Source of the DNA: Myxococcota bacterium
Lineage (GTDB): Bacteria > Myxococcota_A > UBA9160 > UBA4427
Direction: 5' to 3'
DNA length: 64,000 nucleotides
Assembly: GCA_030748735.1 (NCBI GenBank)
Contig: JASMLK010000106.1
Location: forward strand, 1-64,000
Numbering within the stretch: position 1 is the first letter of the stretch; each line of letters begins with the position of its first letter. A program made the position numbers and the translations under genes. Below, one piece after another: positions 41,794 through 63,814 of this stretch. The notes beneath the pieces are model-generated. The model had not been told where the DNA came from and made no database searches. It saw only the letters and a list, made by a program, of their open reading frames with translations.

Positions 41794-42210
41794 ATGTCCG
41801 AAGAACCAAACCTCGTCGCAGAGATGCAGCCCGACATCGAAAATCTCTACCGCGAGGACTCGTTCACCGACCTCAAGATCGCGCAGATCCGAAGGCTCAC
41901 ACCGATCAAGCCGGATGGCAGTGACGACACTTCACGCAAGGTGATGTTCATCGGCGAAACATCGATCATGTCGTCGCGCGGCCCGCTCCCGGTCCACGCA
42001 CCGATCGAAGCCACGGACCTCGAAGATGCCTTCGCGAAGTTCCCCGAAGCCATCAACGCGGCCGTCGAACGCATGATCGAGGAGGCGAAGGAAATGCAGC
42101 GCCAGGAAGCGTCGCGCATCGTCGTGCCCGGTCAGGGCACGGGTGGGCTCGGCGGTCCGGGTGGTCCCGCTGGACCGGCAGGCCCCGGTGGCAAGGTCAC
42201 GCTGCGCTAG
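41794..42210 (+). CDS. Hypothetical cytoplasmic protein with Gly-Pro-rich tail
   Basis: 138 residues, no signal peptide. The first 110 residues are mixed alpha/beta (DLKIAQIRRLTPIKPDGSDD, VMFIGETSIMSSRGPLPVHA, FAKFPEAINAAVERMIEEAK). The C-terminus is GQGTGGLGGPGGPAGPAGPG followed by GKVTLR, a short collagen-like low-complexity tail. AAGGAG before ATG. I do not recognise a family. The sequence would fit a stable small cytoplasmic protein; function unknown. Confidence 0.7.
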   Translation: MSEEPNLVAEMQPDIENLYREDSFTDLKIAQIRRLTPIKPDGSDDTSRKVMFIGETSIMSSRGPLPVHAPIEATDLEDAFAKFPEAINAAVERMIEEAKEMQRQEASRIVVPGQGTGGLGGPGGPAGPAGPGGKVTLR

Positions 42211-42297
42211 AGGCCCGGCGTTCCGCCGCGCAGACGTGGTTCACCCCACGTCGAGCAGCGGGACGTCGATTTCTCTTGCCAGAGTGCGGAGATATGC

Positions 42298-42332
42298 CGT
42301 CGCAGTAGGATGTTCATGAATAATGCGGGCTG
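42298..42332 (-). repeat. 35-bp repeat, single arm of the palindromic REP-like element
   Basis: Identical over 35 bp, in inverted orientation, to 63740-63774. Core GGATGTTCATGAATAATGC. Here only one arm plus the loop is present; the sequence upstream (CCAGAGTGCGGAGATATG) is unrelated. It lies 28 bp past the rhomboid stop (42361). Confidence 0.85.
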
Positions 42333-42360
42333 GTTCGCCATTGCGTAGCTGGTTCGGTGG

Positions 42361-44757
42361 TCAAGCCTCGTGCCTGGCGCCGAGCACCTCGCGACAGTAC
42401 GCGTCCATTCCGTCGAACACCGAAAACGGTGTTCCGGTGGCTGCGCTGAAGTTCGGCAGCGGCGACGCAGCCGACTTCTCCACCAGATCGGAAAGCAGCT
42501 TCTGCACGGCGGCGAGTTGGCTCGGTGCTCCCGGCGCGAGCGCTGCGGGGTCGAAGCGGTCGCTGCGTAGTCGAATCAGCTTGAGGGGCTCTGCGGCGGC
42601 TTGCCAGTTGAGCGCGAAGTCGATCAGCACGACCGGCTTTGCGCCGAGCCCCGAAACCGCCGCGGCGGCGATCGCTTCGATGCGCGCGTAGGGGAGCCGA
42701 GTCTTCTTGCCGCCCTCGACCTCGATCACGATCCCCTCCCGTTCGAGGGTCACGGGAACGGCGTCGCGCACCTGGGTTTCGCGCAGAGTCGGTGCGACAG
42801 TGACCACGGTCGTGGTCTCGTCGTCGTCGTGAGCGGGGACCGAGACCTCGGTCACGGTTTCGTCGGCGCGCGGAATCGCTGAAGGGGCCACCACCTGGGT
42901 CACCGTGTCGCTCGCCCCGCCACCGGCGAAATCGTCCTCCTCGATGGCACCAGCGTCGAACGCCGCCCGGGCGAGTGCATCGTCGTCGAGGTCGCCGAAA
43001 GCGTCGTCCATTTCGCCTTCGAACGCGTGGTCCTGGTCGAGGTCGGTCAGCAGTGGTGGATCGTTCCACGCCTCCGCATCACCCGCTGCGAGATCGTCGA
43101 TCTCGAGAGGGAGAGCGTCCTCGAGTGAGTCGAGGCGAATCGCGTTGGGGTCGATGTCATCGAAGTCGTCGTCCACGCCGAGCGAAGCCGTCGCCGCCTG
43201 CGGCTCGTCGAGTTCGACTGCCGTTTCTACATCCAACGGGGCTTCGGGCTGCGGCGGTGCCGCGCTCTCGGGCGATGGCGCGGTCGGCTGCGCCCCCGGC
43301 CCTTCGGCGGGCGTCGACTGTGGAGCCCTGGCCGGCGTGACTTCCGAACTCAGGCCCATGAGTTCTTCGCGCTCGACGTCGCCGAGTTGGGGATCGCGCA
43401 GGGCGGTCTCCGCCGCCTTACGTGTGAGCTTGGGGTCGAGGTCGCGCGCGATACGCACCACGCGTTGAGCGAGGGCGGTCGTCAGCGGCTTCTTCTGGGA
43501 CACGGCGAAGTCGAGGGCCGACACGGCCGCTTCGGGATGACCTTCGTCGAGGAGCGCTTCTCCCAACCGGACCCATGTCGTCGCAGGCGCCTGCACGTTG
43601 TCGACTTCGTCCGTCAGGGCGAACCAGTTGGTCACCGCCTGGCTTCCACTGCCCGCATGGAGATCCGATTCGATCGCCGAGAGCATCGCTTCGGCGACCC
43701 GCGATGCCTTGCCGATCGGAAGCGCTGTATCCCAGAGCGCAAGCGAGACGTCGCGATTGTCGGGCGCGCGGCGATGCTCTGCCCGCAGGATGTCGAACGC
43801 CTGCTCGACGCGCCCCGCTTCCCTCGCCGCCATCGCGCGCTCGAGGGCCGGGTTCGAAACGACCTCTTCGGCCTCGGTTTCCTTTTCGAGCTGATGCGAT
43901 TCGAACTTCGCGAGGCCCATCCCGATCGCGACCACGGCACCGAGCACCAGGCCGGCGGACTGAACGAAGAGCGGCGCCGCATCGAAGTCGTCGAGGGTCG
44001 TCACACCACGCACGAGCAGCGTGTCCGCCGCCAACCAGGCGGGCAGTACGAGCAGGCCCGGGAGCGGGATCATTCCGAACGCGCGCGGCGACCCGCCGAG
44101 AGACCGCACGAAGTGTGCCCCCAGGAGCGTCGCGATCAGGCCACTCGCTCCGAACCACGGTAACTTCATCGCTTCGGCATAGCCGAGCGCCACGCTGGCC
44201 GAGGCGGTCGCGAGCGTGCCCGCGATGGCGAGCCCAACCCATGGCAGGGGCCCCCAGGCGTCTTCGAGGGCAACCCCGACCAACAGCAGCATCGCAATCG
44301 AAAGCCACAACGCGGCCGCGGTTTCATGGACACCCACGTGGGCGAGCCAGTCGATCGAATCGGCCTTGCTGCTCTCGATCCCGAAGCGCCAGACCGGGAG
44401 CATCCCGACCTTCGCGAGCGCGTAGGCGAGCAGGTCGACGAATTCCCCCTGGCTGCGTTCGACCAGGAAGTCGGAAATCGGCGCCAGGCCCTGTTCCCTG
44501 CGCTCGTTGTAGAACTCCTCACGCAGCGCATCGGCGTACGCCACGGGAATCACGGTTTCGTAGCGGGGATCGACCTCCACGAAGGGACTCTCGTGGAGAT
44601 AGTCCACGGCATCGGCGCGAGCGCGGTCGGCGAATTCGTTACCACCCTGCATCTGCGACCAGGCCGCAAAGAGCGCGATCGCGACCCCGATGGTGACGAA
44701 GGGAATTCTGCGTGCCGATCCGTCGGCCTGCGTCACGAGTACGAAGAAGAGACTCAC
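42361..44757 (-). CDS. Rhomboid-like membrane protein with TPR-like region and long acidic C-terminal part
   Basis: 798 residues. Residues about 100-290 form a rhomboid-type membrane domain (WLAHVGVHETAAALWLSIAM, LPWFGASGLIATLLGAHFVR with GxSG). The last helix reads APLFVQSAGLVLGAVVAIGM where active rhomboids have AHIGG, so the catalytic His seems replaced by Gln. Then come a helical TPR-like stretch (LDFAVSQKKPLTTALAQRVV), a long acidic Pro/Asp linker, and a C-terminal domain (VVLIDFALNWQAAAEPLKLI). Probably not proteolytic; may bind or regulate membrane proteins. Divergent from the DUF3604 gene. Confidence 0.75.
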   Translation of the reverse strand: MSLFFVLVTQADGSARRIPFVTIGVAIALFAAWSQMQGGNEFADRARADAVDYLHESPFVEVDPRYETVIPVAYADALREEFYNERREQGLAPISDFLVERSQGEFVDLLAYALAKVGMLPVWRFGIESSKADSIDWLAHVGVHETAAALWLSIAMLLLVGVALEDAWGPLPWVGLAIAGTLATASASVALGYAEAMKLPWFGASGLIATLLGAHFVRSLGGSPRAFGMIPLPGLLVLPAWLAADTLLVRGVTTLDDFDAAPLFVQSAGLVLGAVVAIGMGLAKFESHQLEKETEAEEVVSNPALERAMAAREAGRVEQAFDILRAEHRRAPDNRDVSLALWDTALPIGKASRVAEAMLSAIESDLHAGSGSQAVTNWFALTDEVDNVQAPATTWVRLGEALLDEGHPEAAVSALDFAVSQKKPLTTALAQRVVRIARDLDPKLTRKAAETALRDPQLGDVEREELMGLSSEVTPARAPQSTPAEGPGAQPTAPSPESAAPPQPEAPLDVETAVELDEPQAATASLGVDDDFDDIDPNAIRLDSLEDALPLEIDDLAAGDAEAWNDPPLLTDLDQDHAFEGEMDDAFGDLDDDALARAAFDAGAIEEDDFAGGGASDTVTQVVAPSAIPRADETVTEVSVPAHDDDETTTVVTVAPTLRETQVRDAVPVTLEREGIVIEVEGGKKTRLPYARIEAIAAAAVSGLGAKPVVLIDFALNWQAAAEPLKLIRLRSDRFDPAALAPGAPSQLAAVQKLLSDLVEKSAASPLPNFSAATGTPFSVFDGMDAYCREVLGARHEA

Positions 44758-63300: not shown

Positions 63301-63735
63301 CGCGTGGAGCATTTCTTCGCGGTAGCCCATGTAGCGATAGAAGGTGTTCGAGATCTGGTGCGCGAGTTGGATGCGACGGCGCCCGTCGGCGTCGTCTTCG
63401 AGATAGCCCGCGATCGACCCGAATTCGGGACGACCCTCGAGTTCGTAGAGCAACTCCGCGATCGACCACAGCATCGACTCGGTGTCGTAGACCGGATCGA
63501 CTTCGCGATCGAACATCCGAAGCGCAATGTCATCGACGAAGTCGCGTAAGGTCAGAACCCGCTGGTTTGCCCAGACACCGAGGCGCTGGGCGAGTTCCAT
63601 CGCGATCCAGCGCTCCATCCCCTGCCCCTGCACGACGAGAAGCTCGGGGTCGAACACGCCACTGCGCGGCACCGCGACCACTTTCGCGAGCGCTTCGATC
63701 AGGGCTTCAGCCCGGTTGCTGCGATGGATGATCAT
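60331..63735 (-). CDS. recC: Exodeoxyribonuclease V subunit RecC
   Basis: 1134 residues. The N-terminus IIHRSNRAEALIEALAKVVA aligns with the RecC start (xxYHSNRLDVLEALM). Further RecC landmarks: ELLVVQGQGMERWIAMELAQ, VFGVSSLPRLHFDLIRALG, VVMTPDIKTYAPYIEAVFGV and VCLLGMNDGAFPRIDHPPGF. The Chi-recognition channel subunit, without helicase activity. The start codon is 5 bp from a palindromic repeat, and no Shine-Dalgarno is visible. First gene of recC-recB-recD. Confidence 0.93.
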   Translation of the reverse strand: MIIHRSNRAEALIEALAKVVAVPRSGVFDPELLVVQGQGMERWIAMELAQRLGVWANQRVLTLRDFVDDIALRMFDREVDPVYDTESMLWSIAELLYELEGRPEFGSIAGYLEDDADGRRRIQLAHQISNTFYRYMGYREEMLHAWLDPARASAHAPADEPDVAWQATLWRQLVARHGDGHLAGRGRALIDRLVRGNVEAGRLPERLSVFGVSSLPRLHFDLIRALGRHCELHLFMLSPTPHYWGDVATEREARRSLHREGSSVDLEGGVDLDEELHLDVGHPLLSTYGKLGRDFHSMLVASGDLDEGEGDLHSEPVGEGLLSGLQSDVYTLQASGRSGLERRSFDSGDRSLRIHACHSPMREVEVLCEELVACFEADASLEPQDVVVMTPDIKTYAPYIEAVFGVRARGAEAAARGEGAIPYRISDRWPDPTDEVVDAFFAGLEVVAGRFSAPDVLDLLGRPCVAQHFGLGTEDLARVEAWIGGAGIRWGIDAAHRAEQAQPEIDVNTWRFGIDRLLLGVAIEGADDALFEGVQPFGDAEGQRAETLERLLEVHRFLVASRATLSGMNSPHAWREALLCFLEGLAIDDDDHHDQHLMLRKAIVKTAEQATNVGFERAVSLTSLREQLERQLQHARRSTGFLAGGVTFCELVPMRSIPFRVVCLLGMNDGAFPRIDHPPGFDLMARDPKLGDRTMRDDDRYLFLEALLSARDRLVITYVGQSIRDGAELPPSAAVSELVDVICDAHAIDQEGEPLSHRAMRKRIREQIEIRHPLHPYGARYQDELRRVFPVHRQLHRELARIDTSRVAREGAFSVRVDPGAEESAIASLALEDLVAFFHAPSRAFVRDTLGIVLRDEREPIARREAFSLDPREAANVGQLILDLHAAGVGFEDAFEVVDATGVLPHGSAGRLAFEDLVQDAEQIARWNTELNVSEAMPKQPFTIQCGGVDITGHFDAIGEAGQVFSSFQRLGRGSELRAWLRHLVWQVGRARDPAAFGKTPPQTSLVGRAQSGKQHVYAIRFGPCEDAEGRLAALVDLYREGLKAPLPLFHEASRAYASALAKKGEAGAIDAARKKFAVDAWSGFGDESDPYVELAFRGVDPFDADANLACGVSFAAAASEVYEPLLAAREELG

Positions 63736-63739
63736 GTCT

Positions 63740-63797
63740 AGCCCGCATTATTCATGAACATCCTACTGCGACGGATGTTCATGAATCATCCGGGCCA
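63740..63797. repeat. Palindromic REP/BIME-like element upstream of recC
   Basis: ATTCATGAACATCC and GGATGTTCATGAAT are perfect inverted arms around the loop TACTGCGAC, extended by GCCCG and CGGGC ends with two mismatches. The first 35 bp match 42298-42332 exactly in reverse. It occupies most of the gap between the aminotransferase stop and the recC ATG. Confidence 0.85.
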
Positions 63798-63814
63798 GGC
63801 GCTCGACCCGTGGT

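Follow-up and report, generated by a model that had tools for sequence, protein, structure and literature searches.

Two palindromic repeats in a Myxococcota genome are probably decayed non-autonomous elements of the IS1380 family

Introduction

In a window of 64,000 nucleotides from a Myxococcota bacterium, i.e., the whole stretch of DNA that was analysed, the 35 bases at 42298-42332 (minus) are the exact reverse complement of positions 63740-63774 (plus). The sequence ATTCATGAACATCC is found three times in the window where 0.09 occurrences are expected. The original prediction recognized this identity and viewed the first copy as a solo REP arm as opposed to a paired BIME, or else as the end of a lost mobile element. 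What kind of repeat is this, how did it reach these sites, and why do the two copies differ? From sequence comparisons we consider it very probable that both are decayed non-autonomous MITEs whose ends are recognised by a piggyBac-like DDE transposase of the IS1380 family.

Two copies in different states of decay

The copy at 42298 was described as a single arm. Actually, the sequence runs on into the interior of an element, down to 42216, and a covariance model matches 42329-42166 on the minus strand (Table 1). Missing are only the far terminal repeat and the adjoining ~58 bp. Similarly, the end of the match at 63774 had been taken for the start of a second arm, which does not hold for the ancestral element. 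The match stops at this position because the copy at 63742 is internally deleted there, with a shared ACGG at the junction; the same 53-bp form is present at two further sites in the genome. What looked like a solo arm and a pair is one element in two states of decay.

The first copy is located, as originally stated, just after the rhomboid-like gene (42361-44757, minus, a weak Pfam Rhomboid match). On its other side, the gene 41794-42210 upstream uses the TAG of the CTAG at 42207 as its stop codon (CTG CGC TAG). The second copy is positioned between an aminotransferase gene and recC, which starts at 63735 and matches Exonuc_V_gamma (E 9e-77). At 63733-63742, 2 bp separate the CTAG of this copy from the predicted start codon of recC. 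A ribosome-binding-like GGAG/AGGAG accompanies the recC start in the congeners G001 and G003, and none is present in the window or in congener G002.

Table 1. Coordinates of the two copies and their flanks in the window
Feature	Position	Strand	Basis
CTAG target site, left duplication copy	42207..42210		direct reading; comparison with congener G002
AGGCC filler at truncated end, replacing left repeat and ~58 bp	42211..42215		comparison with full-length genome copies
Truncated MITE, probably IS1380-type, 114 of ~176 bp	42216..42329	-	cmsearch 59.1 bits, E 3e-12; aligned copies
Surviving terminal inverted repeat CCCGCATTATTCATGAA	42313..42329	-	sequence and aligned copies
Right duplication copy, now CTGG (from CTAG)	42330..42333		direct reading
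CTAG, left duplication copy	63738..63741		direct reading
MITE of 53 bp after internal deletion, with both terminal repeats and the loop TACTGCGAC	63742..63794	+	cmsearch 46.3 bits, E 2.5e-9
Right duplication copy, now CCAG (from CTAG)	63795..63798		direct reading

A repeat family with duplicated targets

The genome (5.08 Mb, a draft of 160 contigs) holds far more than the two copies which would have spoken against a relation to any element. The core occurs 71 times and its reversed control never; a looser end motif, CCCGSATNATTCATGAA, has 89 occurrences. The covariance model, built from full copies, yields 71 matches, which include palindromes counted on both strands, and the family loci number about 70. 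Intact copies are 174-176 bp long and possess 17-bp terminal inverted repeats, CCCGGATTATTCATGAA. When copies are placed in register the boundaries read CCCG[GC]AT[TG]ATTCATGAA in inverted orientation with a tetranucleotide outside. The interior begins with CATCC in one of two subfamilies and with GCCC in the other. A complete element folds into a single long hairpin, with z-scores from -3.5 to -16. As in MITEs, there is no internal transposase gene, size is small (26-176 bp) and copies are multiple. Many of the 160 contigs start or stop ~115 bp into a copy, i.e., the assembly is broken by the element, which explains the fragmented assembly of such genomes.

Next to intact copies the genome contains internally deleted forms of 103, 88, 53, and 26 bp. 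At least ten copies of 25 bp (CCCGSATKATTCATGAACATCCGGG) have CTAG on both flanks, one of them with CCAG. In this form only ATCCGGG is left of the right repeat, hence self-movement is unlikely. Both arm variants occur among the 25-bp copies, which suggests that ATCC microhomologies on either side of the hairpin were repeatedly the sites of deletion.

The elements are flanked by a 4-bp YTAR sequence, mostly CTAG, and TTAA, TTAG, and CTAA also occur. In the source genome CTAG is present at 85 of 100 ends. One locus (L113) has TTAA on both flanks where others have CTAG on both, so the tetranucleotide belongs to the target, not to the terminus. Considering elements from all sources, YTAR is found on both sides in 78 of 106, and in 70 of these 78 the sides are identical, against 49 expected if the sides were independent. 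Asymmetric sites (TTAG or CTAA on both sides) form a direct repeat in four of five cases. As judged from these flanks, the tetranucleotide is a target-site duplication, short and of the type made by IS1380. The Desulfobacteraceae locus L178 and the Nitrospira locus L243 have flanks TTAG...CTAA, inverted rather than direct and unlike a simple target duplication.

Comparison with congeners adds to this. In G002 the orthologous gene ends with ...CTGCGCTAG, and the short interval up to the convergent rhomboid-like gene contains no element. On sequence grounds this is an empty site orthologous to 42207 in which the bare CTAG stop codon is kept. The 63742 element is absent from the orthologous recC sites of G001, G002, and G003.

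These properties bear on the REP/BIME part of the original prediction, according to which palindromic intergenic repeats move as single-stranded hairpins and are spread by a RAYT (Y1) transposase. High copy number, palindromic structure and a frequently intergenic position would fit, and the genome has one Y1_Tnp gene. However, a search for RAYT returned solely this gene, which codes for 142 aa, is IS200-like and is unlinked to the repeat, with no copy within 1.5 kb. The unit of ~176 bp with 17-bp inverted ends contrasts with the 20-40-bp asymmetric REP, and 4-bp target duplications are present; to our knowledge, REP elements moved by Y1/RAYT enzymes make no target-site duplications. Further, the ends are carried by IS1380 genes (see below). 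A REP/BIME origin is hardly credible. What stands of the original alternative is the mobile element, specified as a truncated non-autonomous transposon.

Two other repeats accompany the family. One is a palindromic family, likewise flanked by CTAG, which has the ends GAGCCTGACCCAAGACTC and lengths between 18 bp, in a mini form, and ~190 bp (L004, L003, L040, and L103, all from the source genome); it is probably a further MITE that uses this target. The other repeat, ...GGGGGACTTTCCGGCCGGRCCTCTAG, often adjoins the element (L012, L017, L023, L097, L107, L115, and others in the source genome); the filler at 42211-42215 is similar to its AGGCC end.

A probable link to IS1380 transposases

An insertion sequence with matching ends does exist: in other genomes IS1380 transposase genes carry them. 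The end is found at 10 of 39 loci with a PF13701 IS1380 transposase, whereas 20 shuffles and nine DDE_Tnp_1 loci gave no such end. At the loci inspected it is positioned outside of the gene, pointing inward and mostly upstream; at L273 and L278 it lies about 240 bp beyond the C-terminus of the transposase. The element L271, 1.6 kb long, is complete; it has the two ends TTAA-CCCGGATTATTCACCAT at 500 and ...CTGATGAATAATGCGGG-CTAA near 2150, and a 447-aa transposase at 592-1935 which belongs to the NCBIfam IS1380 family NF033539 (E 1.6e-122). Its flanks are unequal (TTAA vs CTAA) and each end is 3 positions off the MITE consensus. The terminal inverted repeats are common to the MITE and an IS1380 element. 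A few end motifs near IS1380 genes could be neighbouring MITEs since the host genomes also carry the MITE.

Another YTAR-duplicating family, the IS5 group or IS701, might have moved the MITE with its own transposase, and YTAR duplications are indeed made by IS5 (PMC10359306). Yet DDE_5, i.e., IS701, is absent from 41 genomes (the source genome and 40 relatives), the nine DDE_Tnp_1 loci tested for IS5 came from MITE-bearing genomes and lack such an end, and no IS5 or IS701 element sharing these ends was found in the source genome and its near relatives. IS1380 loci do carry the end. As judged from these genomes, an origin from IS5 or IS701 is very improbable, and the IS1380 assignment is retained.

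A search of the source genome, as drafted in 160 contigs, found no intact IS1380 transposase and only a remnant, C83:11187-11468. A single-ended element copy, CTAGCCCGGATTATTCACGAG, directly adjoins this remnant (L265) and points away from it; it is probably a neighbouring MITE. In G006, G007, and G014 the MITE is present and a transposase was not detected. Draft assemblies frequently lose IS copies. The family is probably stranded in the source genome without an active transposase, and a lost or unassembled active copy is possible; we infer that the family is inactive at present.

The following course of events would account for both copies. An IS1380-family transposase supplied in trans would have bound both 17-bp ends and inserted the ~176-bp hairpin at tetranucleotides of the type YTAR, in this genome almost always CTAG, leaving a 4-bp duplication. 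The subsequent decay of copies would have involved either deletions across the hairpin or the loss of one side. The 42298 copy presumably was inserted at the stop codon of gene 41794-42210 and lost its left end afterwards, and the 63742 copy, with the aminotransferase gene and recC as its neighbours, may have shrunk to 53 bp.

Spread beyond the genome

YTAR joined to the same end is present in at least 116 contigs from GTDB genomes of many phyla, where the occurrences nearly always bound hairpins of 150-290 bp. Within the order the distribution is patchy (10 of 80 genomes). The viral contigs searched contained no copy, and the plasmids searched gave weak unrelated matches only, save for a palindromic 36-bp match in Persicobacter. 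Two candidates for larger elements were dismissed: a 1.8-kb pair (L199) consists of two separate MITEs, and L243 was considered as autonomous driver element until its gene proved to be of the IS110 family and inserted within the repeat. This IS110-family transposase gene (PF01548, PF02371; L243:834-2180, Nitrospira, JAJONL010000035.1) is located inside the element copy near the apex. IS110-type elements insert in REP sequences likewise (PMC1525189). The literature searched contained no description of the end sequence and no described IS1380 MITE.

A conserved interior in one element class

In one class the boxes CTRCTGCGR, TCGACGTACTG.AGTACGCCTSCG, and TCTCGCGACG are conserved across several phyla, the hosts being Nitrospirota, Desulfobacterota, Gammaproteobacteria, Krumholzibacteriota, Planctomycetota, and the source lineage. 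The stems vary and yet remain paired. In an alignment of 23 elements from these various phyla, pairing holds for 91.4% of cells, with 105 two-sided changes vs 34 in shuffled controls, and sliding the pairing partners abolishes the covariation signal. The boxes were not seen in the IS1380 ends inspected. Tentatively, we entertain the possibility that elements of this class are not just passive MITEs and that selection acts on a nucleic-acid structure made up of the conserved apex (TCGACGTACTG.AGTACGCCTSCG), the subterminal boxes and the covarying stem, which would be required in piggyBac-like transposition or else as RNA. If true, this structure enabled a single lineage of non-autonomous elements to survive in several phyla.

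Another view would regard the repeat as a structured RNA or a host-recruited hairpin, e.g., a terminator, an mRNA stabiliser or a protein site, with the conserved apex and the subterminal boxes as the working part and spread as a secondary matter. Pairing, two-sided changes and boxes would agree with it. On the other hand, Rfam has no match above gathering score, the boxes are missing from other hairpin classes that share the ends, many copies are reduced to 25-53 bp, and the occurrence within the order is patchy, as stated. Moreover, a long palindrome may stay paired through repair without any function. We judge this explanation of the repeats unlikely and maintain that they are MITEs. The conservation of the interior may reflect a function, a requirement of transposition, or the spread of one lineage combined with palindrome repair.

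Stop codons and the scarcity of CTAG

Among 37 flanks of coding appearance, 27 have the TAG of the duplication as their in-frame stop (P about 1e-6 vs one third). CTAG is 13-fold under-represented in the window, with 16 seen vs 206 expected, and 12 of its 14 occurrences in coding flanks are stops. A special preference of the insertion for stop codons was dropped as an explanation, as CTAG depletion accounts for the bias: insertions are often on TAG stops because the available CTAG targets are mainly stops. Since the duplication restores the stop, such insertions are mild. The rarity of a target can steer an element in this manner; scarce CTAG persists mainly at stops, and insertions go there. 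The window also has about threefold more GATC than expected (593 seen, 206 expected).

Comparison with known systems

With REP/BIME the family shares interspersed palindromes and the role of IS110 target, as in the Nitrospira copy; it differs by the target duplication and by the missing RAYT link. Bacterial palindromic MITEs comprise ERIC/RU-1, Correia, Nezha, and bcr1. These resemble the present family as gene-less hairpins of 100-200 bp with inverted ends, a target duplication and dozens of copies, yet have other ends and another target.

PiggyBac and its non-autonomous derivatives have ends starting with CCC and a TTAA-type 4-bp target. Both properties of this eukaryotic system recur here, whereas the window family is bacterial and uses YTAR, not strictly TTAA and in this genome mostly CTAG. 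With the IS1380 family (NF033539/PF13701), complete in L271, the elements have the terminal inverted repeat and the YTAR duplication in common; unlike it, those in the window have no transposase gene and the interior of the hairpin differs from the IS ends. IS1380 serves as prokaryotic outgroup of piggyBac (PMC10140906). With YTAR plus CCCGGATTATTCATGAA as a sequence key, many unannotated palindromic repeats of environmental genomes are tied to a single family of transposases, namely the relatives of piggyBac in bacteria. In kind this is ordinary mobile DNA; the family is broad and is not described in the literature searched.
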